Shown here piece by piece: positions 5,154 through 48,926 of a DNA stretch of 64,000 bases. The stretch is from Bdellovibrio bacteriovorus (GTDB taxonomy: Bacteria > Bdellovibrionota > Bdellovibrionia > Bdellovibrionales > Bdellovibrionaceae): contig NZ_LUKD01000001.1 of the NCBI RefSeq assembly GCF_001592745.1, positions 180,489 to 244,488 of the forward strand, given 5' to 3'. How positions within the stretch are numbered: position 1 is the stretch's first letter; every line of letters begins with the position of its first letter. The notes beneath the pieces were generated by a model. It did no database searches, was not told the origin of the DNA, and saw only the letters and a program-made list of their open reading frames with translations. A program made the position numbers and the translations under genes.

Positions 5154-7868
5154 TTACTCGAACTTCACGACTATATTTCTCTGCAGTCTACTATCCTCTG
5201 CTTTTACACCTGGAAGAAGTACCACGGCACCTTCTGACCACGAATGCACTCGAACGGTTTCAGCAACATAGTATTCTGTAGAAAGTGTGTTAATAGCACC
5301 TGTGCCTTTGATCGATCCTGCTTCAGTGATTTGCGCATATCCTACTTGCAGATCAGTCACTCCAACAGTTAAGTCCGAATTCATAAGATAGGTAAAAAAG
5401 CGAAGATTGTCGTTTTCATCAAAACTGATATCAGAATAGGTCGGAGATTTTCCTGGGAAAAGTGTTGTAGGAAGTTCGAGACCGCCGACGGAATTAAAGC
5501 TTGTATCTAGGACACCACTGTCATTAATTCTTGTAATATAAGTTCCTAGCGACGTCGGTGAAGTCAATATAAGGATCGGCATCACAACACGGTCCTTACT
5601 ATCCATCTGGAAAGAGGTGGTCCCCATCAACGCCATAAAGTTCGGATCTAAAATTGAACTATTCCACTCCCCGTTCGTTCCGTATGTGGAATCCAAAACT
5701 CCAGCGGTTGTTAGTCGGAGCAACGTTATTGGAGGCAAAGATGACGTGAAGGGTCTCAATGGAAAAACACCGGCTACAACAGCTCTCCCTTTAGAATCGA
5801 TAAAGAGATTGAATGGCAAGTACGATTGGTTGACCATGGCATCTAGTTGAACTGAAATAAATTTTCCATCCGTTCCATACGTCGTATCCAGAACTCCGGA
5901 GGAATTTAAACGAGCAACAGCGACACGTGGATACTCGACGTTAGAGATAATCTCTGCAATATAAAGTCCCACATAGATACTGCCGCTTCCATCTACTTTG
6001 ACGTCAATGCTTTTAGTAATTTCAGCAGACTTCGTGGCTAGATACATGCGAGGCTGGTAAGTGTCAAAATCGACGTTGTTTGATCCGGCAAAAGAAGCGT
6101 CGGCAGATCCGCTAGATAAATAACGACGAACGATCAGTCGAGAAACGGCTCCCGTATCATAGACAGCCCCCACAACGACTATTCTTCCCTGTGAATCGAT
6201 GTCAAAAGAACCATACACGACGTCTTGAATAGCCAAATGACCTTGATCCGCAAAGCTCGTATCTAATGAACCCGTTGTTTTGAAGCGGCTGATATAAGCA
6301 ATGTTACCGTCCTCTAAGGCAGAGATCGTCTGCATCACGTAGATGCGGCCTTCTTTATCAATAGAGGTTTTTTGTATTAAACCAGGCAAAGGAGTTAACA
6401 CGCGGAAATCAAAAACTTTGGTCCCCGTGGTGTTGAACGATGCATCCCACGATCCGTTAAGATTGAGCTTCTTCATCCAGGCTTCTGATCTGGGCAGCGT
6501 GGTTGTCGCGTCGTCGTAACTAAGCTCCGCATAGTCGATCACATAAATCGCACTAGCGTCTGCCACCGTGCTTGAACTGTATAAGTAATTGAGATTGAAG
6601 ACGCCATCCCAAGAGAAAATCCCGGCTGTGCCAAAAGTCGCATCAAATGCGCCGCCTGAGGTAAGACGCCACAGAAGGCCTTTTTTAACTGAAGTTCCAT
6701 AATTGCGACCGATTCCAGAGACATAAATATTATTGCTGGCATCGATCCACATTGTATCTGGAGTTTCATAAAAGTTTGCACCGAGCGACGCCGCTGTTCT
6801 AGAGCCCGAAGCTCCGAAAGTGGTATCCGCAGATCCTGCGGAGGTTCGTTTCCAAACGATAAAGTCGCCACTGCTGGAGGTGCCTGTATGTCCCGCGACT
6901 AGAATACTTCCATCTGCAAGAACCAAAACACTGCGTGCGTGCGATTCGGATCCTGAAAGAATGCTGATTCCATTTGTTCCGAAGGTGGCATCCAGGTTTC
7001 CGTTTAATTCAATTTTCCAAAGCTGGGCTTGATCGTTGGCACTCATCCCTGCAGCCGTTCCCCGGTAGCCCGCGATGAGCGCTCGCGTCCCCCCATCACT
7101 GAAGGCAAGATCATAGCCACCTGAAAATCCGGAGGTGACTCCACCACTCACTGTTCCCCCAAGGACCAGCTCTCCACTTCCCGCCAAAGAGGTATCTAGA
7201 TCACCATCATCATTAAAACGCCACACCATCGCGCGAGTACTGCTTGTGCTTGTATCGACAATGCGCGAGCCGACGACCCAAATACGCTCTGACAAGTCCA
7301 CGTGTATTTTTCGCGGCAGAACTTGGCCATCGTATTCGATAGAAGCCTTCCCTTGATCTGCGAAAGAGGTATCAAGAGCTCCGGTACTTAGAAAGCGATA
7401 GAGGTTTAAGTTTGTAACGTCTTGGGGACCCAATCCCGAACTGTTCGAAGCAAAAAGAATACGCCCCATTGAATCAAGAGCAAAAATATAACGAGCTCCC
7501 GGATAGAGGCTGTTACGCAGTCTTTCAATAGCAGGTACAACAACTCCACCGCTACCAAAGCTCGTAACCAAAGACCCGTCTTTATTAAATTTAGAAAAAC
7601 TAAGAGAATCCCCGGAACGCGACACAAATAGAATTTTGCCATTACCGTCTTCGAAAGCAGCCAAGGGCTCTTCTTGCGCATTGAGGTTGTAAGCAATCTG
7701 TCCCGAAAGTTTTTCGTCGGGAGCATAGCTACTGTCTAAAACACCTTTGAATTCGTAAGGAGCTAGCGAATTTGCAGGAGAAAGTTGCACATCAAGACTG
7801 CAACCCAAAAGAATTGTCGAAAAAACCAATCCGAATACTCGCAAAAAAACGTGCCACTGGTACTTCAT
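5154..7868 (-). CDS. Delta-60 repeat beta-propeller lipoprotein
   Basis: 904 residues starting with a lipoprotein signal (FSTILLGC, lipid Cys about residue 23). The rest is built from about a dozen ~55-65-residue repeats with the delta-60 signature: GSLDTSFADQG, GVLDTTYGTDGKF, then DSQGRIVVVG or similar. These repeats, common in deltaproteobacterial secreted proteins, fold as propeller blades. There is no enzymatic motif. It is expected on the outer membrane as a binding or scaffold protein. Monocistronic as far as can be seen; the start is the only ATG with the lipobox at the right distance. Confidence 0.85.
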   Translation of the reverse strand: MKYQWHVFLRVFGLVFSTILLGCSLDVQLSPANSLAPYEFKGVLDSSYAPDEKLSGQIAYNLNAQEEPLAAFEDGNGKILFVSRSGDSLSFSKFNKDGSLVTSFGSGGVVVPAIERLRNSLYPGARYIFALDSMGRILFASNSSGLGPQDVTNLNLYRFLSTGALDTSFADQGKASIEYDGQVLPRKIHVDLSERIWVVGSRIVDTSTSSTRAMVWRFNDDGDLDTSLAGSGELVLGGTVSGGVTSGFSGGYDLAFSDGGTRALIAGYRGTAAGMSANDQAQLWKIELNGNLDATFGTNGISILSGSESHARSVLVLADGSILVAGHTGTSSSGDFIVWKRTSAGSADTTFGASGSRTAASLGANFYETPDTMWIDASNNIYVSGIGRNYGTSVKKGLLWRLTSGGAFDATFGTAGIFSWDGVFNLNYLYSSSTVADASAIYVIDYAELSYDDATTTLPRSEAWMKKLNLNGSWDASFNTTGTKVFDFRVLTPLPGLIQKTSIDKEGRIYVMQTISALEDGNIAYISRFKTTGSLDTSFADQGHLAIQDVVYGSFDIDSQGRIVVVGAVYDTGAVSRLIVRRYLSSGSADASFAGSNNVDFDTYQPRMYLATKSAEITKSIDVKVDGSGSIYVGLYIAEIISNVEYPRVAVARLNSSGVLDTTYGTDGKFISVQLDAMVNQSYLPFNLFIDSKGRAVVAGVFPLRPFTSSLPPITLLRLTTAGVLDSTYGTNGEWNSSILDPNFMALMGTTSFQMDSKDRVVMPILILTSPTSLGTYITRINDSGVLDTSFNSVGGLELPTTLFPGKSPTYSDISFDENDNLRFFTYLMNSDLTVGVTDLQVGYAQITEAGSIKGTGAINTLSTEYYVAETVRVHSWSEGAVVLLPGVKAEDSRLQRNIVVKFE

Positions 7869-26841: not shown

Positions 26842-29800
26842 TCAAGGAATGAAATATTCAATCACGGCAGGCAGACCATTTTGTTTTGCCATCATGACTA
26901 AGCGCTTAGGTTTTGCCCCTGACGCGGCCTTAACTAAAATGCGACGTCCTTCACACGTGATGCTATCTATCGGCATTGCAAGCTCTGTCAGAGTGTAATG
27001 CGTGTTTTCTACAAGCGGCCAGTTTGCCGTCGATGTTAAATCCGCAGGGTTTGTGATTGCCGCTTTATAGACTTTTCCGGCAGAACAGAAATAGATATTT
27101 CCGGAATCATAAGCAAATCCACCGGGCGCTTTGGACAGGGTTAACATCTTTCGCACATTGCCACCATAAACTACATGCATGTCTCCAGCATAAGCCGAGT
27201 CACGCACTGGATTTAAAAGCCAACCTGAAAGAGGCGCGAAATAAACGGGCGTTCCCTTATAGTGCATTCCACGCGGTCCTAAATGACAGTTGCTAGAACT
27301 TCCATCTGGACACGCATCACCCGACTGATCTTGAACGGTGACACCTGCAATATAGTTGGAAGTTGTTGGAGTTAAAAGTCGCAAGTGACTGTTGTTATGA
27401 GCTGTTCCATTCCAATGGAAATGATTCATTAAAATATTACCACTGCGATAGGCGACGATCTCTGGAGAATATCCGGTAATTAAAAGATCCGACAACGGTA
27501 TTGTGGTTTGCGTGAAGCTTGCGGTTGTTCCCTCGCCATCAAGCAGGCTTTCCCAAAGACCTGTAGCTCTATTCAAACGACAGACCTTATGATACGAGAC
27601 AGCAGAGTCGACATCAATCTGCACTCTGTTTTCATAACAGTTCATGTAAACGTCGCCGTTAGCAGGATTTGTCGCAAAGGGATTTGGATTCCACCAGTTC
27701 CCTAAGCGAATCAACTGAGCGTTCGCTGCGGTGGCAAAATTGATATTGCCGTTTTGCCCGTTACCTGCCACCAAACGAACTTCAGGAGAAGCTCCCGGCA
27801 CGATCTCACGCATTTTATTTTCTTGGTGATCCAAAATAATGACGCTATCGCCGGCTCCGTGATCTAAATAGTGAACCATTGCTAAGCGCATGTCGGTCGC
27901 AGAGCCACCGTCACCCGCATCTTTACGTTGACCAAAAAGTGTATAGACATTGCCATTGACGACAGTCTTAATAATTCCACGAGTCGAAAAATAAATTCTT
28001 CCGTAACGATCGACAAAGGCATCATCCAGGGCCACTGCGCACGAAGTCGCCGGCGTTCCATCTGTACAAGATCCCAAGGCTCCCGTCCCTAAAACACGCG
28101 ACCATGTGCCGTCATCATTAAGTTTAGAAATTGAATGTTCTGTGGCGCGATTTGAGCGATAAACTCTGCCATCCAAGGATTGAACTTCATAGTAGTTCAA
28201 ACTTGAATTGGCGTAGGGATGATTCGGATGAACTCCGTTCGCGACCCAGGTGGTAATATCAAGCTCCGTCATATTCCCATAAGAATTTCCTGGGACGGGA
28301 TTTGTCGCACCGACATAGGCTTTTAAGATCTCGCTTGTTTGTGGATTGTAGCGCAAGCTAAAAAAAGACCAATCTTTGACGTTCAAATCCCATGTCGGCA
28401 AATCTTTGACACCTGTTCCTGAAAAACGGAAAGCTTCCACACGAGGAACCGCTAACGATCCTTTATAAACACGGATGCGCCCTCCATTGTCTTTACCTTT
28501 ATTGGGGTTGTCTGAAATAAAATAAATATCACCATTAGGCAGGGCCATAAATGGCGCGCGCTTACGAATAGCCCAGGTTTGATCATTCGTGAGATTGATT
28601 TTCACGTCACGTGGATCTGCGACGGTGTCGGCGGTGTTAGTTCCGAGATTTCCTGCCGGGTCCGCACCGATGATTGTTTCAATCGTCATGGGCTCGACGC
28701 TTGTGTCAATTCGACGAATCATGTTGCGGTCATAGACTAAAATACGATTTTGATAATCTAAAGTGGTTCTTAAAATCGCTTTAGCCCGGGCTTGCTCTAC
28801 GGGAATGCCATCACCATAAGAGTCCTCGGTGCTTTTAGCTAAGCGAAGAATTAATTTCGAGTTGTTCGTCTTCGGATCAATATACATCAAACCATAAGAC
28901 GAATCGTTAAAGAAAATCTTTCCGTCGGTCGTCACTAACAATGTACCCGGAGCGGTGTCATTGCCGACTGCGGTATTAAACACGGTCTGCTTCGCGTTTC
29001 CATTGTGACCGGGGTCTTGATTTCCCGCGAGCAGATTTAATAGACCACTGTTTAAAGGTGGACTTGTCACTTGCGCCGTCTGACCGTAATTGTCAGTCAC
29101 ACGCACTTGCAACTTGAAGAATGTGTCGTTAGGGAAGGTCGAATTCCAAACAAAGCATCCCGTGTGAGGAGCGGAATAACTGCAACTTGATCCATTCGTA
29201 GAGTTATTTGCTAAAGAATCATCAATCAAAGTATAAGAACTTCCATCTAATGAGGAATAAAGTTCCACTTTCGTGATGCTGCCATTATCTGAAGCCTTCC
29301 ACTTAATATAAACCGGCGCATTGTTGGCAAAATTCATGTCGCCATTAATAGGCGGCGTATTCGGAGTCGCAGAGTTCACAGTCAGGATATCCGACACTAT
29401 TGGAGAAGGGTCATTGATATATTCAATAGTGTTATAATCTTTTTTAAGCGTCGCCGAATTCGTGCTGATATTGCCAGCCACATCGCGCACCCATGCATAG
29501 ATGTTATAAGAGCCAAAATTAATCCCTAAGAAGAAATCAAAATCGACAAGTATCAAATCCGGCAATTCTTCCAAACCTGGTTTCGGAGCTTTAACTCCCA
29601 CCCAACAAGAATCATTCGCGGCTGGAACAGAGCTGGACGTCTTTAAACAGAAATCCTTCACAGCCGTTTCTGCATCATGCGCTTGTAAGCTCACCGTGAC
29701 ATAGGATCGTACAGTATCATCTGGAGTAAGTGAGCCATTGATTTTTAATTGATTAGCCGTGATCGTCGGCGGAGTCACATCCAGAACCACATCAAAAGTA

Positions 29801-31662
29801 TTTGAAACACCATAGCCGATATTGCCATAGTCATCCGTTAAAACGGCGCGCACTTTCAAACCGGTATAAAAACTTGTCGGTGTCCACGAGATCTCAAAGG
29901 ACTTATTATTCATGGGCCCGGCAAGTCCCAAAGTACGACTGGTCGCCGCCGTCCACGTCGTGCCATCCGTTGAGTATTGCAAACTTAAAGTGGCTGCCGC
30001 AGAAACTGTGGCTTCGGTGACTCTGACGACAAAAGGATACGCCACATTTTTTGCTAACGTAGGAACCGCATCCAAAGTCATGATCGGAGCTTTACTGTCA
30101 TAAGTGATCGTAAAAACTGTCGCGGTGGAAATATTTCCCGCCTCATCACGAGCGTAAAAACGAATATTGCGCAGTCCCTGCTGATCTGAAACGCTTAAGT
30201 CATATTGATAATTCTGAGACGCCGTTGAACAACTGATCCAGCCCGCATCTCCAAGAGCTGGCGGCGCATTAACCTCTTTCATTAAAATCATCGTGTGATC
30301 CGAACAATCATTCACCGTGAATTTAGCTACCGGCACACTCGTTGTCGCTGAAGTATTTAAAGTCACGTTCGGTGGAACAATCTGCGTATCCTTGATCACA
30401 CCATGATTTAATACTGATGAGCCATTTCCCGCCGCATCTGAAGAAGTGACAGAAATATTCTTAGCACCATCCACGGCTGACAAAGTCAGGTTGATTGAAT
30501 AAGAGCCACCGGCAGAACAAGTTTGCACTGAAGGAGAGGGAGTAAAATTACCGTTTGCGGTCACCGTGAGTCCTGCCTCACAAGTTCCTGATAACGTAAA
30601 GGTCGAATGGATTTTCTGCCCCGCAACGGGGCTTGCAATCGTTAGCACCGGCGCCGTTTTGTCAATCACGACCGCCGCACTTTCAAAAACGCCGGATGAG
30701 GAAGCCCAGTTGTTCGCTTGATCTCCGGCTAAAACACAAAGACGATAAGAGCCGTCTCCACTAAAGCTCAATGGAATATCCGTCCCCGCCGCCACAGGAG
30801 TGGTCGCCATTAAAGCACTATACTGGCTGGAACAATCGGCATCTTTGACAATCACGTAGCGATATTGGGTGCCACCATCACTAGGCAAAGTTACAGACAC
30901 GAACCGTGTTGAATCGTTATTACTAAGTGCACTCCCTAAAGATCCCAAACTTGGAAGAAGCAAAGGCGCAATCGTATCTTTATTAAAACTAACGCTTGTC
31001 GCAGTTCCAACGTTCTTAGCTACGTCAGACTGTTTAACAGTAAAAACGTTGGAACCTTCGAGCAACCCATCACCAACAACCGTCGTTGCAAAGGTGCCAT
31101 CACTTTGACAGGAGATCGTCGAAAGCACGACACTTCCCGAAAGAATCTGCACATCACCATCAGCACTTTCGCAAGTTCCCGCTAACGGAATCGAAGAAAT
31201 AGAATCGAGCCCCAAGTGCGCGGGCAACACAGAAGTAAAAGAAACCACCGGCGCAACGACGTCCTTTAAAACCGAAGACTCGGTACTTGAAGGCACACCC
31301 GTTTTTGATTTGATTGAAAGAACCACTTTGTAAGCAGTGTCAGTCCAATCTTGAGTATCGATCTGCAATTCAAACTTACTATTGGTACAAAGTGTTGAGT
31401 ACTGATGAGTCTCATGCAAAGCCAACGAAGAGTTCTCAGGAACAAACGAGATCTGAATATTCTGATTCTCGTAATAACACTCCCCTTGAACACTCACATT
31501 ATTTACATCAGAGGATTTATTGATAACAAAAGACTCAAGACGCTCCCCTGAAGAATCCGTCAAAACAGGAGGAGTCAGAGCATTAAAATCCAAAAGATTG
31601 CCACTGAGCGTACACCCAGCAATAACGTACATTCCAAACAGGATTCCAGCGACGTTCCTCAT
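26842..31662 (-). CDS. Giant Ig-like/beta-propeller surface lipoprotein
   Basis: 1606 residues; lipoprotein signal MYVIAGC (Cys about 17). The first ~800 residues are tandem Ig-like domains (GTCESADGDVQI, GTCEAGLTVTANG, repeated TVTSSDAAGNGSS, ARDEAGNIST, VRDVAGNISTNS with DxTPPxIT linkers). The C-terminal ~700 residues look like an NHL-type propeller (NPNKGKDNGGRIRVYKG, VYRSNRATEHSISKLNDDG, DRYGRIYFSTRG, ILDHQENKMREIVPG). No catalytic motif. Likely an outer-membrane adhesin or scaffold on the predator surface; monocistronic. Confidence 0.85.
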   Translation of the reverse strand: MRNVAGILFGMYVIAGCTLSGNLLDFNALTPPVLTDSSGERLESFVINKSSDVNNVSVQGECYYENQNIQISFVPENSSLALHETHQYSTLCTNSKFELQIDTQDWTDTAYKVVLSIKSKTGVPSSTESSVLKDVVAPVVSFTSVLPAHLGLDSISSIPLAGTCESADGDVQILSGSVVLSTISCQSDGTFATTVVGDGLLEGSNVFTVKQSDVAKNVGTATSVSFNKDTIAPLLLPSLGSLGSALSNNDSTRFVSVTLPSDGGTQYRYVIVKDADCSSQYSALMATTPVAAGTDIPLSFSGDGSYRLCVLAGDQANNWASSSGVFESAAVVIDKTAPVLTIASPVAGQKIHSTFTLSGTCEAGLTVTANGNFTPSPSVQTCSAGGSYSINLTLSAVDGAKNISVTSSDAAGNGSSVLNHGVIKDTQIVPPNVTLNTSATTSVPVAKFTVNDCSDHTMILMKEVNAPPALGDAGWISCSTASQNYQYDLSVSDQQGLRNIRFYARDEAGNISTATVFTITYDSKAPIMTLDAVPTLAKNVAYPFVVRVTEATVSAAATLSLQYSTDGTTWTAATSRTLGLAGPMNNKSFEISWTPTSFYTGLKVRAVLTDDYGNIGYGVSNTFDVVLDVTPPTITANQLKINGSLTPDDTVRSYVTVSLQAHDAETAVKDFCLKTSSSVPAANDSCWVGVKAPKPGLEELPDLILVDFDFFLGINFGSYNIYAWVRDVAGNISTNSATLKKDYNTIEYINDPSPIVSDILTVNSATPNTPPINGDMNFANNAPVYIKWKASDNGSITKVELYSSLDGSSYTLIDDSLANNSTNGSSCSYSAPHTGCFVWNSTFPNDTFFKLQVRVTDNYGQTAQVTSPPLNSGLLNLLAGNQDPGHNGNAKQTVFNTAVGNDTAPGTLLVTTDGKIFFNDSSYGLMYIDPKTNNSKLILRLAKSTEDSYGDGIPVEQARAKAILRTTLDYQNRILVYDRNMIRRIDTSVEPMTIETIIGADPAGNLGTNTADTVADPRDVKINLTNDQTWAIRKRAPFMALPNGDIYFISDNPNKGKDNGGRIRVYKGSLAVPRVEAFRFSGTGVKDLPTWDLNVKDWSFFSLRYNPQTSEILKAYVGATNPVPGNSYGNMTELDITTWVANGVHPNHPYANSSLNYYEVQSLDGRVYRSNRATEHSISKLNDDGTWSRVLGTGALGSCTDGTPATSCAVALDDAFVDRYGRIYFSTRGIIKTVVNGNVYTLFGQRKDAGDGGSATDMRLAMVHYLDHGAGDSVIILDHQENKMREIVPGASPEVRLVAGNGQNGNINFATAANAQLIRLGNWWNPNPFATNPANGDVYMNCYENRVQIDVDSAVSYHKVCRLNRATGLWESLLDGEGTTASFTQTTIPLSDLLITGYSPEIVAYRSGNILMNHFHWNGTAHNNSHLRLLTPTTSNYIAGVTVQDQSGDACPDGSSSNCHLGPRGMHYKGTPVYFAPLSGWLLNPVRDSAYAGDMHVVYGGNVRKMLTLSKAPGGFAYDSGNIYFCSAGKVYKAAITNPADLTSTANWPLVENTHYTLTELAMPIDSITCEGRRILVKAASGAKPKRLVMMAKQNGLPAVIEYFIP

Positions 31663-40254: not shown

Positions 40255-41457
40255 CTATTTCTTTTTCTTCTTCGTCGTCAAACCCGCGTCCGCACGAATC
40301 TTAGAAGCTTCCAATTTCATTTTTTCCGCTTCGGCTTCGGCTTTCCCTGTGTCTAACTTAATCTTCGCTTCTTCCGCTTTGTTTTGAGCAATTTCCATTT
40401 GTTGCTCAAGCTTTTCGCGTTCCGTCTTCGCTTTTTCTGCTTCCTCACGCAGACGCTTTAATTCCGCGTCGGCGCGCAGACTTTCAGCTTCGCTTTCGGC
40501 AATCACTTTTTTAGCACGAGCAATTTCAAGACTTGCGGCCGCTTGTTCTTTCTTCAAGTTGTTCCGGTTGCCTTCAAGCTCTTGACGGGCTTTAGCCGCC
40601 GCTTGTTTGGCTTTTTCTTCCTGCGATTTTATTTCGCTTACTTTTTTGCGCTCAGAATCAGCCTGTTGAACAGCTTCTTTAGAGGCCGCAAGAGCGGACT
40701 TCAACTCGCCATCCACTTTCTCAATCATTGCCTTTGACTGTTCTTCTTGAACTTTCAAACGAGCGATCTCCGCTTCGGCTTTCGCTTTATCGGCTTCAGC
40801 TCTGGCAATCTCTTGCTTTGCTTTAGCTTCGCGTGCTTTGGATTCGGCCACAGCTTTCTGAGTCAGCAAGCGAGCCTTGGAAAGATTTTGCTCTGCTTTA
40901 TTGGCATCAATTTTAGCCTCTTCAGCTTCTTTGCTGGCCTGTTGTCCCGCTTCTGTCGCGGATTGCGCCTGCTTTTCTTGATCTTTCGCCTGATCTCTTA
41001 AGTCATCGGCTTTGTCTTCAGCTTGCTTTCTTTTTGCTAACGCTTCGTCGCGAACTTGAATGGCTTTTTTAGTTTTTTCTTGAGCAGCTTTAATACGGGA
41101 CTCAGCCGCAGCCTGCTCTTTTTCCGCATTGGCTTTTTGCCGTTCGTGGTCCGCAGTTTCTGCTTTCAGTTTTGCAGACTCTCTTTCTGATTCAGCTTGT
41201 TCTTTCTTAGATTCGTTTTCTAAAGAACGAGCCTTATTGATCGCGGATTGCGCTTCAGAGCGCGCTTTATCGCGGCGACGGCGGTCTTCTTCCGCACGTT
41301 TTTTAGCTTCATTGGCTTCGGCCTTCGCGGCTTCAGCGTCTGCTGTAGCTTCTTCGGCTTCGATCTGTGAACTATCAGCTTGTGCGAACGCATGTTGCGG
41401 TAAGCCTTGAGTCATCAACGCTGCCAAAAGAAGTAGACCAAGAGGTTTCAACTGCAT
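40255..41457 (-). CDS. Exported Lys/Glu/Ala-rich coiled-coil protein
   Basis: 400 residues: signal peptide (LPQHAFA-Q), then one nearly continuous coiled coil of A/E/K/R/Q heptads (KAEANEAKKRAEEDRRRRDK, SKARLLTQKAVAESKAREAK, KLEQQMEIAQNKAEEAKIKL) and a Lys-rich end TTKKKKK. No globular domain. It could be a periplasmic spacer or peptidoglycan-interacting rod. Low-complexity proteins of this kind attract false homology, so no family is assigned. Confidence 0.75.
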   Translation of the reverse strand: MQLKPLGLLLLAALMTQGLPQHAFAQADSSQIEAEEATADAEAAKAEANEAKKRAEEDRRRRDKARSEAQSAINKARSLENESKKEQAESERESAKLKAETADHERQKANAEKEQAAAESRIKAAQEKTKKAIQVRDEALAKRKQAEDKADDLRDQAKDQEKQAQSATEAGQQASKEAEEAKIDANKAEQNLSKARLLTQKAVAESKAREAKAKQEIARAEADKAKAEAEIARLKVQEEQSKAMIEKVDGELKSALAASKEAVQQADSERKKVSEIKSQEEKAKQAAAKARQELEGNRNNLKKEQAAASLEIARAKKVIAESEAESLRADAELKRLREEAEKAKTEREKLEQQMEIAQNKAEEAKIKLDTGKAEAEAEKMKLEASKIRADAGLTTKKKKK

Positions 41458-41850: not shown

Positions 41851-44800
41851 ATGGTCACACTTCGGTACGTCCTTTTTATTGTGCTGCCCATAACTGTTGC
41901 GCTATTTGATAGCTTGGCTTTGGCATCTCCCCAGAGTCTGAGTTATCAAGGGCGTATTCTTAAATCTGACGGTTCCCCCCTGGAATACAACAACGTCAGC
42001 TTTCTTTTTGAAATCACTTCGGCTGATGGAAGCTGTGTCTTGTATCGCGAACAAAAAGACGGCGTAAATATGCAAAGTTCAAACGGAGTCTTTGATGTCC
42101 CGATTGGAACGGGCACACGCCTTTATCCCACGGCACCCGTCTTTGAACTTTCTGAAGTTTTCGTAAATGGAAAGTCTCATAGTTGTTATGGAAGTGGTAG
42201 TTGGTCCGCCAGCAACACCTCGGAACGTCAGTTGAAAGTTCAATTCCACGACGGAAACGGCTGGAAGGTCATTTCGCCAGCCAATATCATTCGCTCTGTG
42301 CCCTTTGCTTATACTTCTTTTAGCGCGCAAAAAATTGCAGATAAAACCGTCAACGACCTTTTACTAAAAACCGCCGCACCGGCAACGACATGTCTATCAG
42401 GTGAAGTGCTAAGCTGGAATGGAGCTCAGTTTGTATGCGTCACTGATGCTGGCGGCTCCGGGGTGATTTCCGATATAATCGCCGGAACTGGAATTTCTGT
42501 TTCAGGAACAACAACGAAAACCATCAACCTAGCAAACACCAGTGTCGCTGCTGGCAGCTATGGTTCCGCCACTCAAGTACCGACCTTCACCGTCGATGCC
42601 CAAGGCCGATTGACAACGGCAAGTTCAGTGACAATCACCGGTGTTTCACCCGGGGGCAGTGCTGGCGGAGATCTATTGGGATCTTACCCAAACCCTACTG
42701 TAGCAAAATTAGCTGGAAAGAATTTGGCAGTCACATCACCTAGTGGCGGGCAGTTTTTGAAGTACGATGGCAGCGAGTGGGAAAATGCATCGCTGTCCTC
42801 TGCCGATTTAACGGATGCGGGCTCACTTCTAAAATCTTCGCAAATGCCTGCGACGTGTGCCGTGAACCAAACACTCACCTTCGTTTCACCGACGGGCGCA
42901 TGGACATGTTCAAATATCGGGTTGAATTGGTCTCAAATCACAGCGGGAAAACCGACAACACTGATCGGCTATGGCATCACAGATAAAGTCATTAATAATG
43001 CTGGTACGGACGCGGGAACAGATATCACTTCCCTTCAATCAGGTTTAAATTCTTCAAAGCCTGCGGCGGGAGTTGCGGGAAGAATCTATATCTCCACGGA
43101 CACCAAAGAAATTTATCGGGACAATGGCAGCACCTGGATTCGTGTCGCCACGGAATCTGGAACCAGCACCGCGACATTAACAGGAGTCACCGCGGGCACA
43201 GGACTTTCTGGTGGAGGAACTTCTGGCAACGTCACTCTTAATCTTGCCAACACATCGGTGACGGCGGGTTCTTATGGATCCAGCACACAAGTACCCACAT
43301 TCACTGTCGACGCTCAAGGCCGTTTGAGTTCGGCTTCGCAAGTCACAATTTCTGGAGTGGCCCCCGGAGGAACTGCGGGCGGAGATCTTTCAGGAAGCTT
43401 TCCAAATCCCACGGTCGCAAAAATTCAGTCGACCAATGTGTCTGCGACCGGGCCATCTATCGTGGGACAAACACTTCGCTATCAATCGAGTCAGTGGACA
43501 CCGGCGTTTTTAAATATGGCGGATATTCGCTCAACGATAACTCCGTTTGGTGGAGTTTTTGCTGCGACAGCGTGTGGCGCCGACCAATCTATGTATTACG
43601 AATCCTCGTCGGACACTTTTAAATGTCAAAATATCACTCTGGCAGCTTCGCAAATCACGAGCGGTCAAATCGCCTCGGCACGATTGCCTGCAAGTGCGAA
43701 CTATTGGCAAGATGGAGGCTCAGGTAAAATCGTCTATAGCGGTGGTGCCATTTCCGCAGCAGGTCTGATTGAATCGACCAGTGGTGGTTTTAAATTCCCC
43801 GATGGCAGCACCCTGACTTCTGCCAATGGAATCAGTGCTGCCGGAAGTGCATTTATCGGAGCCGCAAGAACTGTCGCTACAGCCAACTGCAGTTGGGGTC
43901 TTGATAGCACAACGTTTGCGACACTCAATACGGCCAATGCAAACTGTGCTTTACCGACATTGGAAGGGTCTGCCCTTGTGCCGAGTGAAGGTAAAATCCC
44001 TGCCGTGCGTTTTGCGAATTTGAAAGCGGGTCGATATTTAGTTTATGCCTATGGTGCCTTCTATTCAAATACCGGCAGTTGCTTCTTTCGCATTACTGAT
44101 GGCACTCAAACCTCTGAAGCGACAAACACTCATTCCGCGACTACGGATCGAACAAGTCTGATCGTTGGCGAGTTCAATTACACTGCAGACCAACCTACAA
44201 TCACTTATAAAATTGAAATACGCAGGTGGACGGGCTCGGGTTCTTGTAACATCAGCAATGCCGTCGATTATGGCGCCGGACAAACTTTTAAAATGAGTCT
44301 GTACCGAGTCGAAAAACCCGCAGAAGCTTCTGATAATTTAGGTAATCACGTCGCTACAAACAATCTGGTTTTAGGTAATCACTACTTATCCGGTGATGGT
44401 TCTAACTCTGGAATTGGAATCACGGCTTCAGGCAATGTGGGCGTGGGCACCAACGCACCTGTCACAACCTTAGATGCTCGCGGCGAGGTTCGTATCGGTA
44501 ACACAGGCGCAAGTTGCAGCGGCGCGATTGAAGGCGCTACTCGCTATAATAGCACGTCAAAGAAATTAGAATTCTGTGACGGCAGTACTTGGCGCCCCGT
44601 CACTTCGACCACAAGAAGAACCGTGTGCACCTATGATAACGCCGCCTACAGCACACAGGTGAACGGACAAAATCTAATAAACTGGGGAGCCGGTCATTGT
44701 GACAACGGTTACCCTAGCAGTGGTTGTGTAGGTTATCTTTCTAAGGCTGTGGCCTGTGGAAGTGATAGCGATTGGGCCGCTCTGGGCCCGAATGAAACGC

Positions 44801-44907
44801 CTTACAATGGAGGCGTGGCCGTGGGTGCCAATGGCGGGATTTCATGGTCGATGGCGACTCCATGTAACGGAGTCTGGGTGCGCGCTGTATACGAATGTTC
44901 TAACTAA
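41851..44907 (+). CDS. MAT-type adhesive fibre protein with jelly-roll-like and Cys-rich tip
   Basis: 1018 residues with a signal peptide (cleavage LALA-S, ~25). Conserved head SLSYQGRILKSDGSPLEYN (~27-160). Then a shaft with two copies of VPTFTVDAQGRLTTASSVTI plus GGDLLGSYPNPTVAKL, and a third region ITPFGGVFAATACGADQSMYYESS. Residues ~680-830 form a beta-rich domain resembling a TNF/C1q jelly roll (AVRFANLKAGRYLVYAYGAF, FKMSLYRVE). The C-terminal ~100 residues are a Cys-rich tip ending WVRAVYECSN. This mosaic plan is that of Bdellovibrio MAT prey-recognition fibres. First gene of a two-fibre operon. Confidence 0.88.
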   Translation: MVTLRYVLFIVLPITVALFDSLALASPQSLSYQGRILKSDGSPLEYNNVSFLFEITSADGSCVLYREQKDGVNMQSSNGVFDVPIGTGTRLYPTAPVFELSEVFVNGKSHSCYGSGSWSASNTSERQLKVQFHDGNGWKVISPANIIRSVPFAYTSFSAQKIADKTVNDLLLKTAAPATTCLSGEVLSWNGAQFVCVTDAGGSGVISDIIAGTGISVSGTTTKTINLANTSVAAGSYGSATQVPTFTVDAQGRLTTASSVTITGVSPGGSAGGDLLGSYPNPTVAKLAGKNLAVTSPSGGQFLKYDGSEWENASLSSADLTDAGSLLKSSQMPATCAVNQTLTFVSPTGAWTCSNIGLNWSQITAGKPTTLIGYGITDKVINNAGTDAGTDITSLQSGLNSSKPAAGVAGRIYISTDTKEIYRDNGSTWIRVATESGTSTATLTGVTAGTGLSGGGTSGNVTLNLANTSVTAGSYGSSTQVPTFTVDAQGRLSSASQVTISGVAPGGTAGGDLSGSFPNPTVAKIQSTNVSATGPSIVGQTLRYQSSQWTPAFLNMADIRSTITPFGGVFAATACGADQSMYYESSSDTFKCQNITLAASQITSGQIASARLPASANYWQDGGSGKIVYSGGAISAAGLIESTSGGFKFPDGSTLTSANGISAAGSAFIGAARTVATANCSWGLDSTTFATLNTANANCALPTLEGSALVPSEGKIPAVRFANLKAGRYLVYAYGAFYSNTGSCFFRITDGTQTSEATNTHSATTDRTSLIVGEFNYTADQPTITYKIEIRRWTGSGSCNISNAVDYGAGQTFKMSLYRVEKPAEASDNLGNHVATNNLVLGNHYLSGDGSNSGIGITASGNVGVGTNAPVTTLDARGEVRIGNTGASCSGAIEGATRYNSTSKKLEFCDGSTWRPVTSTTRRTVCTYDNAAYSTQVNGQNLINWGAGHCDNGYPSSGCVGYLSKAVACGSDSDWAALGPNETPYNGGVAVGANGGISWSMATPCNGVWVRAVYECSN

Positions 44908-44921
44908 GAAAGGCAGAGCAC

Positions 44922-47285
44922 GTGGTTATGAAGACCTTTATGTACGTTTTTAGAATAGCGATGCTCTTCTTCATCATCACTTATTCTCTTGTGGCGAATG
45001 CTTCGCCGCAAAGCTTAAGCTATCAAGGCCGAATTCTAAAATCAGACGGCACACCATTAGAGTTCAACAACGTCAGTTTTCTTTTTGAGATCACGTCTGC
45101 TGATGGAAACTGTGTTTTGTATCGAGAACAAAAAGATGCCGTGAACATGCAAAACTCCAATGGCGTCTTTGACGTGCCTATCGGATTGGGCACACGTCTT
45201 TTTCCAACAGGCCCGGTGTTTTCTCTTTCTGATGTTTTTGTGAATGGCATCACGTACACCTGTGCCGGCAGCGGTTCTTGGATTGCCAGCAACTCGGCGG
45301 AAAGACTTTTGAAAGTTCAGTTCCATGACGGTTTAGGTTGGAAAGTGATTTCTCCGGCGAATATTATTCGCTCTGTGCCGTTTGCGTATACATCCTATAG
45401 TGCGCAAAAAATTGCAGATAAATCCTTGAATGATCTTGTGCTGAAATCCACCATCCCGGTTGCATCTTGTACTGCGGGGCAAGTCATTACTTGGGATGGA
45501 GGAATTTTTAAATGTGTGACCGATGCCGGAGGATCCGGCGTTGTTGCTGACGTCCTTGCAGGAACAGGAATTAACGTCACGGGAACAACCTCGAAGACCG
45601 TGGCTTTAGATAACACAGCCGTCACGCCGGGCTCTTATGGGTCTTCAAATCAAGTTGCGACTTTCACTGTTGATGCCCAAGGTCGATTGACCTCGGCTTC
45701 GAACGTCACCATTGCGGGGACAACGCCTGGTGGATCGGCCGGCGGTGATTTAAGTGGCAATTATCCAAATCCTTCCGTCGCTAAAATCCAAGGAACAACG
45801 GTGTCAAGCTCTTCACCCTCAGGAGTCGGTCAGGTATTACGTTATCAATCCAGTCAATGGACCCCCGCCTTTTTAAGTGTCGCGGACATTCGCTCAACGA
45901 TCACTCCCTTTGGTGGGTCTTTCGCCAGTGCTAGTTGCACTGCCGATCAGTCGATGTACTATGAATCTTCGACGGACACATTTAAGTGTCAGAACATTGG
46001 AATCTCTGCGACGCAGATTACGAGCGGTCAAATCGATGTGTCGCGACTGCCTTCCGCTGCCACTCTTTGGCAGGAAAATGGCGTCGGCACTGTCTACTAC
46101 AATGGAAACAAGGTCGGCATCGGTACGAACACTCCCCGAGTGTCTTTGGATATTGGAAGTAAAACGGATGCCTTGGCCGTGCCGGTCGGAACATCGGCGC
46201 AACAGCCTGCTTCTCCTACTGCAGGTTTCATTCGCTTCAACACGACCTTAGCAGCCCTGGAAGTTTTCGATGGCTCAGCATGGGTGGCATTAGACAACAG
46301 CAATAATTATGTCAGTCCGGCAGGACTTATCACGGCGTTTTCTAGTAACAGCTGTCCTACCGGGTGGCTAGAAGCCAACGGAGCTGCGATTTCACGTTCA
46401 ACCTATGCCGCCCTTTATACTGCTATCGGAACAACTTTTGGAAGTGGCGACGGAAGCACAACTTTTAATCTTCCAGATCTACGCGGAGAATTCATTCGCG
46501 GATTTGATAATGGAAAAGGGGTCGATGCAGGCCGCGTGTTGGGTTCAAAACAAAAAGGCTCTCTTCTTGTGGGTGACGATGGCAACGGTGTGAACTCGGT
46601 TTCATTCTCTGGCACTTTTGCCGTCACCACTCAATCCGATCCTATTATAGCTTCTGACTATCCGGGTGTGGCGGCTTCAACTGCGAACGCAGACTTCACT
46701 AACTTTTACACTAGCGCTGCAAATCCAGGCTATTTTGGCGCTGCAAGACCTCGCAATATCGCGCTCATCTATTGTGTGAGTACAGCGAACAGTTCGCAAA
46801 AAACAGTCGCCAGTGCGGGTACCGGAACAACAAATACCGTTCCCGTTTGGACAAGTTCTACAGCACTAGCCGACAGCCCCATCGTTGTTTCTGGAGGAAA
46901 TGTCGGTATCGGCACCCCAACACCTTCCGCGAATTTAGAAGTAAATGGATCGATTAAGTTCGGAGGACAGAAGATCGCGCGAGTCACGACTTGTAAACGC
47001 GCCGGAAGTGCTTCGGCATTTAACGCAAACTGCTTTTACTGGAAGTGGGCCGCGGGTGAGTGTGACAACGGTCTGCCCTCAGGTAATTGCACAGGATTTA
47101 TGGTGAAGGCTGCTCACGGCGGCGAAGACCAAGATTGGGAAGTATGGGTGCCCGGCGAGACGATGACTCCCGCGACCTGCGGCCCTAACACAACGACCGC
47201 CCCCAACGGTGGCATGACGTGGTGGTGCACGGGATGTGCAAACTCAGGACTGCGCGTATCGGCCACGTACATGTGCGATCAATAG
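44922..47285 (+). CDS. MAT-type adhesive fibre protein with phage tail collar domain and Cys-rich tip
   Basis: 787 residues; GTG start with AAGG eight bases before (ATG at 44928 is the alternative), only 14 bases after the upstream fibre gene. Signal peptide (VANA-S), conserved head and shaft modules as in its neighbour, then a phage tail collar domain (residues ~465-630: GLITAFSSNSCPTGWLEANG, TTFNLPDLRGEFIRGFD, PRNIALIYCV) and a Cys-rich tip (ECDNGLPSGNCTGFMVKAA ... CDQ) homologous to the neighbour's. The collar domain replaces the jelly-roll-like one next door, a clear module swap. Confidence 0.9.
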   Translation: MVMKTFMYVFRIAMLFFIITYSLVANASPQSLSYQGRILKSDGTPLEFNNVSFLFEITSADGNCVLYREQKDAVNMQNSNGVFDVPIGLGTRLFPTGPVFSLSDVFVNGITYTCAGSGSWIASNSAERLLKVQFHDGLGWKVISPANIIRSVPFAYTSYSAQKIADKSLNDLVLKSTIPVASCTAGQVITWDGGIFKCVTDAGGSGVVADVLAGTGINVTGTTSKTVALDNTAVTPGSYGSSNQVATFTVDAQGRLTSASNVTIAGTTPGGSAGGDLSGNYPNPSVAKIQGTTVSSSSPSGVGQVLRYQSSQWTPAFLSVADIRSTITPFGGSFASASCTADQSMYYESSTDTFKCQNIGISATQITSGQIDVSRLPSAATLWQENGVGTVYYNGNKVGIGTNTPRVSLDIGSKTDALAVPVGTSAQQPASPTAGFIRFNTTLAALEVFDGSAWVALDNSNNYVSPAGLITAFSSNSCPTGWLEANGAAISRSTYAALYTAIGTTFGSGDGSTTFNLPDLRGEFIRGFDNGKGVDAGRVLGSKQKGSLLVGDDGNGVNSVSFSGTFAVTTQSDPIIASDYPGVAASTANADFTNFYTSAANPGYFGAARPRNIALIYCVSTANSSQKTVASAGTGTTNTVPVWTSSTALADSPIVVSGGNVGIGTPTPSANLEVNGSIKFGGQKIARVTTCKRAGSASAFNANCFYWKWAAGECDNGLPSGNCTGFMVKAAHGGEDQDWEVWVPGETMTPATCGPNTTTAPNGGMTWWCTGCANSGLRVSATYMCDQ

Positions 47286-47383: not shown

Positions 47384-48169
47384 ATGAATCTACTTAAAAC
47401 CAAAAAGCTCTTGGCGCTGGGACTTCTTTCTTGGAGTCTTCCCGCCTCTGCCTTGCACATCATGATCGATCCCGGTCATGGCGGTGTTGATACCGGCGCC
47501 GTGCATGGAGCCGCGAAAGAAGCGGATTTGGTTTTAAAAGTCGCTCAACGTCTAAAAACTATTTTAGAAAAGAACACCGACTTCAAGGTTAGCATCACGC
47601 GCACGACGGATCGCAATCTAGGACTTCCTTCACGCGTGAAAATGGCAGAAGATGCAAAAGCTGATTTGTTCGTCAGCCTTCACGCCAACGCCGCTTCCGA
47701 TCAGCGCGCAAAAGGTGTTGAATTCTTTTTTCAGAACAATCTTCCCCCTGATGAAGAAAGTTTATTTTTAGCCAGCCAGGAAAATCAGATGGTTCTGAAC
47801 AGCAAAGAACTTCACGATATTTCCGGAGGCGATGAGCTTTCGAAAAAGGGCGACGTCGCGGCGATCGTAGAAGACCTGCGCCGTCAAAACCGTATGGAGA
47901 GCAGCTTGCACTTATCCAAAACTCTGACGCAAGTTTGGAATGCGGATAGCACAGCGACTCATGCCACGATTAAACAAGCTCCCTTCTATGTCATTTCAAA
48001 AACGTCAATGCCGTCAGTGCTTATTGAAATTGGCTTTCTGACGAATCCTCGTGAAGCCAAAAGGCTTTTAACGACGGAATACCAGAGTGATCTTGCTCAA
48101 AAAATCTACAGCGCCCTGCTCTCTTACAAAGAAAAGATGGACAACCGCACAGCGAAGACATTAGATTAG
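47384..48169 (+). CDS. N-acetylmuramoyl-L-alanine amidase (Amidase_3, AmiC-like)
   Basis: 261 residues from ATG at 47384, which begins the signal peptide (PASA-L); an upstream start at 47303 is rejected. Zinc ligands H32 (DPGHGG), E46 and His in VSLHANA, catalytic Glu in VLIEIGFLTN. Cleaves the amide between muramic acid and the stem peptide in the periplasm. It has no cell-wall targeting domain. Starts before the rph-rdgB pair. Confidence 0.92.
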   Translation: MNLLKTKKLLALGLLSWSLPASALHIMIDPGHGGVDTGAVHGAAKEADLVLKVAQRLKTILEKNTDFKVSITRTTDRNLGLPSRVKMAEDAKADLFVSLHANAASDQRAKGVEFFFQNNLPPDEESLFLASQENQMVLNSKELHDISGGDELSKKGDVAAIVEDLRRQNRMESSLHLSKTLTQVWNADSTATHATIKQAPFYVISKTSMPSVLIEIGFLTNPREAKRLLTTEYQSDLAQKIYSALLSYKEKMDNRTAKTLD

Positions 48170-48194
48170 CCCCATTCCCACCTGGAGGTTATTC

Positions 48195-48926
48195 ATGCGC
48201 GCCGACGGCCGTCTTTTTGATCAATTAAGACAAGTAAAAATCACTCCTCACGTTTCTGAATATGCCGAAGGCTCTTGCATCGTTGAGTTTGGTAAAACCA
48301 AAGTTCTTTGCACAGCCACTTACGAATCCAAAGCGCCACAATGGTTGATGGGAACAGGTGCAGGCTGGGTGACGGCGGAATACGGCATGCTTCCTCGCTC
48401 GACTCACACACGCATCAAACGTGAAAAATCAATGACCGGTGGACGCACGCAAGAGATCTCACGCTTGATTGGTCGCTCTCTTCGCGCGGCCGTGGATTTA
48501 AAACTTCTTGGTGAAAAACAAATCATCGTCGACTGTGATGTTCTTAATGCTGACGGCGGAACTCGCACGGCTTCTGTGACGGGCGGCTTTGTTGCCTTGG
48601 CATTAGCATGTAAAAAACTTGTTGATGTCAGCGAAATCAAAGCCTTCCCTTTGATCAACTATGTTTCTGCGATCAGCGTCGGTCTTCATAATAACAATGT
48701 TCTTTTAGATCTAAACTACGACGAAGATTCTGCTATCGGAACAGACATGAACTTCGTGATGACCGATAAAGGTCATTTCGTGGAAGTACAAGGCACTGCC
48801 GAACACACGCCGTTTTCTCGTGAACAACTTTTCACAATGATGGATGTCGCAGAAAAAGGCTGCCGTGAACTTTTCATTCACCAGGCTTCTGTCGTAAATG
48901 AAATCTATCGTTTGGCGGGAAGATAA
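48195..48926 (+). CDS. rph: Ribonuclease PH
   Basis: 243 residues; ATG after CTGGAGGTTATTC. Family motifs: EGSCIVEFGKTKVLCTAT, RTQEISRLIGRSLRAAVD, DCDVLNADGGTRTASVTGG and VEVQGTAEHTPF. Phosphorolytic 3' trimming of tRNA precursors. One base separates it from rdgB. Confidence 0.96.
   Translation: MRADGRLFDQLRQVKITPHVSEYAEGSCIVEFGKTKVLCTATYESKAPQWLMGTGAGWVTAEYGMLPRSTHTRIKREKSMTGGRTQEISRLIGRSLRAAVDLKLLGEKQIIVDCDVLNADGGTRTASVTGGFVALALACKKLVDVSEIKAFPLINYVSAISVGLHNNNVLLDLNYDEDSAIGTDMNFVMTDKGHFVEVQGTAEHTPFSREQLFTMMDVAEKGCRELFIHQASVVNEIYRLAGR

Follow-up and report, generated by a model that had tools for sequence, protein, structure and literature searches.

The window, a 64,000-nucleotide stretch of Bdellovibrio bacteriovorus DNA, contains two genes, A and B, that an earlier note had read as a tandem pair, and both proved to be intact, neighbouring open reading frames (Table 1). 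The gap between them is ~14-20 bp, depending on whether B starts at the GTG at 44922 or at the ATG at 44928, which is a possible alternative. We labelled the source genome of A and B G000 and the other genus members G001-G023. The genes at the A/B site of G000, G005 and G009 are A0/B0, A5/B5 and A9/B9, respectively; G017 and G018 have one gene each at the site, A17 and A18, and G021 has three, Y21, Z21 and X21. Gene A has full-length orthologues in G005 (95%) and G009 (83%), and gene B has one in G005 (88%).

Table 1. Features of the A/B site, in window positions
Feature	Position	Strand	Remarks
Left flank, coiled-coil protein gene	40255..41457	-	found in 23/24 genus genomes
Gene A, NS74-type MAT fibre	41851..44907	+	1018 aa; intact ORF
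A conserved MAT N-terminal head	41929..42495	+	residues 27-215; 77% aa / 72% nt to B head
A shaft unit R1, absent from B	42496..43236	+	residues 216-462; nine-allele alignment
A shaft unit R2, common to B	43237..43758	+	residues 463-636; 70% aa to B
A internal TNF-like domain	43813..44295	+	residues 655-815; phmmer match to 8OKW_C
A distal linker, VGVGTxxP...RYNSTSKKLEFCDG motif	44410..44604	+	residues 854-918
A Cys-rich C-terminal tip	44605..44904	+	residues 919-1018
Gene B, NS74-type MAT fibre	44922..47285	+	787 aa from GTG 44922; intact ORF
B conserved MAT head	45006..45572	+	77% aa to A head
B short shaft, counterpart of A unit R2	45573..46046	+	alignment
B internal phage tail collar module	46140..46841	+	residues 407-640
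B Cys-rich C-terminal tip	46974..47282	+	residues 685-787
Right flank, amidase (Amidase_3) and rph	47384..48926	+	conserved

Proteins of the mosaic adhesive trimer (MAT) superfamily carry a conserved beta-rich N-terminal domain of ~130 aa after the signal peptide, followed by a repetitive fibre shaft and a variable C-terminal tip, and are trimeric on the predator surface; the S74 subgroup has a C-terminal Peptidase_S74 domain, and 21 MATs have been described in B. bacteriovorus HD100 (Caulton et al. 2024, PMC10769870). Judged by their sequences, A and B are non-S74 (NS74) members of this family. Their heads are homologous to those encoded at numerous MAT loci, both in the genome and across the genus, with 41-58% identity between the head of A and other MAT heads in the same genome, so that the family identity proposed earlier was borne out. 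The N-termini look signal-like by inspection, and both proteins fit the MAT plan of repeated shaft units followed by differing C-terminal tips. Pfam gave no Peptidase_S74 match in A or B, although the same scan detected the domain in Y21, and we therefore placed the pair in the NS74 group. The genome holds many MAT-like genes. Another MAT gene (head AAPAALTYQGRIVKSSG...) lies on the minus strand from window position 1 to ~1930 and runs past the left edge of the window. The minus strand also encodes a 904-aa protein with DUF5122 beta-propeller matches (5154-7868) and a 1606-aa protein with bacterial Ig-like domains (26842-31662).

A and B were aligned base by base and scored against shuffled sequences. 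The proposal that the two share heads and shafts holds for the heads and for R2, which are related (Table 1), but not for R1, an extra unit of ~240 residues that makes the shaft of A longer than that of B. Part of R1 recurs in R2 (72% over 153 nt); since the part missing from B is bordered by this repeated sequence, loss or gain of R1 through recombination between shaft units is plausible. The Cys-rich tips are homologous (Z=16), but with 35% identity the earlier description of them as shared was overstated.

The middle domains of A and B are unrelated (Z=0.0), as the earlier note had supposed, and its two domain readings were confirmed. The jelly-roll-like domain of A is TNF-like: residues 666-804 match 8OKW_C, the solved tip of Bd2734 (phmmer E=4.9e-15). 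The middle of B is a phage tail collar domain by Pfam (PF07484, E=1.4e-23, 83 bits against a curated cut-off of 24), and it also matched the PHROG 523 tail collar fibre (E=5e-39) and the T4 short tail fibre 1OCY (E=8e-6). PF07484 found no match in A, and profile comparison gave no match between the middle of A and the collar, G018 or X21/B9 middles. These results make it hardly credible that A and B are collinear duplicates that merely diverged without any change of module, even though the order of parts is alike in both genes: collinearity over the full length was not seen, the middle falls to background between high-scoring flanks, profile comparison finds no relation between the middles, and they match different known families.

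The earlier note further claimed that long near-identical stretches (about 41940-42340 against 45005-45420) could promote recombination and switching between the genes. Direct comparison found two blocks of DNA homology, one of 698 nt with 71.5% identity and another of 429 nt with 69.7%, and a repeat finder aligned 41923-42222 with 45000-45299 (300 nt) at 74% identity. The longest exact run common to A and B is 21 bp (42325/45402), which is no more than is seen with MAT genes from other parts of the genome, some of which match A exactly over as much as 23 bp. With identities of 71-74% and a longest exact run of 21 bp, the term ‘near-identical’ is wrong, and the pair does not fit a phase-variable or switching system with long identical repeats. 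We looked for gene conversion by counting the head sites at which B agrees with a single A-allele and not with the remaining two; the counts were 13 for A0, 12 for A5 and 16 for A9, and A-B linking sites were not enriched in any strain. Since these sites are evenly spread over the strains, conversion between the pair is without support. Programmed or frequent switching of middles by recombination between A and B within one genome is therefore very unlikely, despite the direct tandem arrangement and the homologous heads and shafts, and G005 keeps the order and modules of both genes.

We sought the flanking genes in 24 genus genomes and read the slot between them in the 23 besides G000. MAT genes occupy the A/B site in six genomes, G000 included, and translated searches with A, B and other slot proteins detected no MAT at the site in the 18 others. 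In 15 of these 18, the space from the coiled-coil gene to the amidase contains no ORF >230 aa, and for most of them nothing >150 aa was seen. Other genes lie near the site in G012 (629 aa) and G022 (820 and 275 aa), and G004 has genes of 203 and 182 aa between the amidase and rph. The left flank of G005 sits on another contig and the coiled-coil gene was not found in G017, so that synteny in these genomes rests on the right flank. The content of the occupied sites varies. G005 carries A and B as G000 does, with order and modules alike; in G009, A is accompanied by a second gene whose head and short shaft are of the B type but whose middle and tip differ; in G017 and G018 the site holds a single gene, of A type apart from its unrelated middle. 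Of the three genes at the site of G021, one encodes an S74 MAT, another a beta-propeller protein with LVIVD repeats, and the third is X21, in which a long A-type shaft is followed by the middle and tip found in the second gene of G009 (71%). The LVIVD protein of G021 (L065:5029-9222, 1397 aa, 17 beta-propeller repeats) lies between two MAT genes, and its C-terminal stretch is weakly similar (25%) to residues 727-914 of A.

Comparison across these relatives supports module exchange, more clearly between species than between A and B. At the amino-acid level, A and the G018 gene are 74% identical in the head, 75% in R1, 75% in R2, 63% in the linker and 81% in the tip, but only 18% in the middle; with G017 included, the values are 74% for the head, 73-75% for R1, 75% for R2, 60-63% for the linker and 79-81% for the tip, against 18-20% for the middle, which is background. 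Shuffling of the A/G018 alignment gave Z scores of 143 (head), -0.3 (middle), 35 (linker) and 61 (tip). By alignment, the middle is replaced and the sequence on both sides is kept. The distal linker of A retains 44-63% identity to its counterpart in the G017, G018, G009 and G021 alleles with other middles. B and the G009 second gene are 65% identical over residues 3-450 and then unrelated, with relatedness ending at about residue 400-450 and a tip Z of 0.4, and X21 matches the same G009 gene in its middle (Z=80) and tip (Z=110). Taken as alignments, these comparisons show that middle and end domains at the A/B site were replaced repeatedly during evolution.

The modules differ in how widely they occur. 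All three copies of the TNF-like domain at the A/B site are internal. Other genomes carry five more, on ORFs of 826-868 aa, and full reading of three of these ORFs placed the domain at the C-terminus. The collar was found in B, its orthologue and one MAT of G004, plus weaker matches. Among the 24 genus genomes, the G017/G018 middle is confined to the A/B site, and the X21/B9 tip was found there and nowhere else. No convincing solved relative emerged from profile searches with the G018 middle or with the middle and tip of X21/B9, and an AlphaFold2 monomer model of the G018 middle was of low confidence (mean pLDDT 32). A by-eye guess that the X21/B9 middle is C1q-like was supported by no test. 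The Cys-rich tip occurs in ten copies in 8/24 genus genomes, at the A/B site in five of these eight, and in none of 42 other family genomes searched. The tip of A is 79-81% identical to the G017/G018 tips, and it is closer to the tip of a MAT at another G021 locus (42%) than to that of B. In a MAT at another locus of G021 (L146:1726-4422), the Cys-rich tip comes after a stretch that looks, by eye, like YadA-type head repeats. A phage origin of the tip was considered and rejected, as no match was found in phages, IMG/VR or PHROGs. Its profile gave no convincing solved relative (a weak actinohivin match, E=0.016, spans only 29 residues), and its AlphaFold2 monomer model was of low confidence (mean pLDDT 45).

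We evaluated the possibility that whole, ready-made fibre genes came by horizontal transfer, with no recombination inside genes at the site. Most of the genus is without a detected MAT gene there, and different gene sets occupy the site in different lineages, both in favour of such transfer. However, heads encoded at the A/B site group in a single clade that excludes every other MAT compared (support 100/99), and like heads and tips flank unrelated middles. The divergence between G000 and G005 is also uneven along A and B: third-position difference in the A head is 0.455, compared to 0.21 in residues 463-1018 of A (p=2e-10) and 0.22 in the flanking genes (p=8e-10), and it reaches 0.52 in the shaft and collar of B (p=5e-24 against the flanks). 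This pattern suggests between-lineage recombination inside both genes, although third-position differences respond also to selection and local rate differences, and selection could have contributed to the unevenness. With one genome per species compared, the exchanges seen lie between species. We regard transfer of whole genes only as unlikely, and consider it probable that A and B are MAT surface fibres whose site has had its middle and tip modules, and partly its heads, exchanged by homologous recombination between lineages.

According to this proposal, the space from the coiled-coil gene to amidase-rph would be the home of MAT genes in one Bdellovibrio group, and the conserved head and shaft on one side and the distal linker on the other could provide the flanking homology for module replacement. 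A and B would act as trimeric surface adhesins for prey contact, anchored to the predator by the head and lengthened by the shaft, with the middle domain and the Cys-rich tip both exposed toward prey. The middles might instead be spacers or trimer clamps, with prey binding by the Cys-rich tip alone, as both are internal to the fibre and have a further domain on their distal side. We think this rather unlikely: in Bd2734-type MATs the domain found in the middle of A makes up the terminal tip, and exchange for unrelated domains would not be expected of spacers. A more ambitious reading, in which the fibres are two-storey adhesins with a stacked prey-binding middle and tip, exchanged independently at one site so that recognition becomes combinatorial per fibre, is offered tentatively, as a possibility that we would not yet favor.

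MAT fibres are the leading candidates for the means by which Bdellovibrio recognises its many prey. The A/B site offers a natural allele series, in which one module changes and the rest stays constant, that can be matched to prey binding, and it places a domain known as a fibre tip inside a longer fibre.

Our text search of the literature consulted found no account of a collar-bearing MAT or of internal-domain exchange; the supplementary tables of the MAT paper may list one. The collar domain of B is as in phage tail collar fibres (T4 gp12, PF07484), but in B it sits inside a MAT fibre and is followed by a Cys-rich tip. Like A, the HD100 MAT Bd2734 (TNF-like tip, PDB 8OKW) combines a MAT head with a domain of the TNF-like family. 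In Bd2734-type proteins (G006, G008 and G019) this domain is C-terminal, at ~690-830 of 840 residues, whereas in A it is internal and followed by a linker and the Cys-rich tip. Exchange of tips is known from the HD100 pair Bd1334 and Bd2133, which are ~75% identical in the fibre region and then have unrelated C-terminal parts (PMC10769870), resembling the A/B site. In that pair the C-terminus was exchanged; between A and the G017/G018 genes the middle was exchanged and the tip conserved. The A/B site is thus a variant of the published tip swapping, with an internal domain exchanged under a conserved tip.
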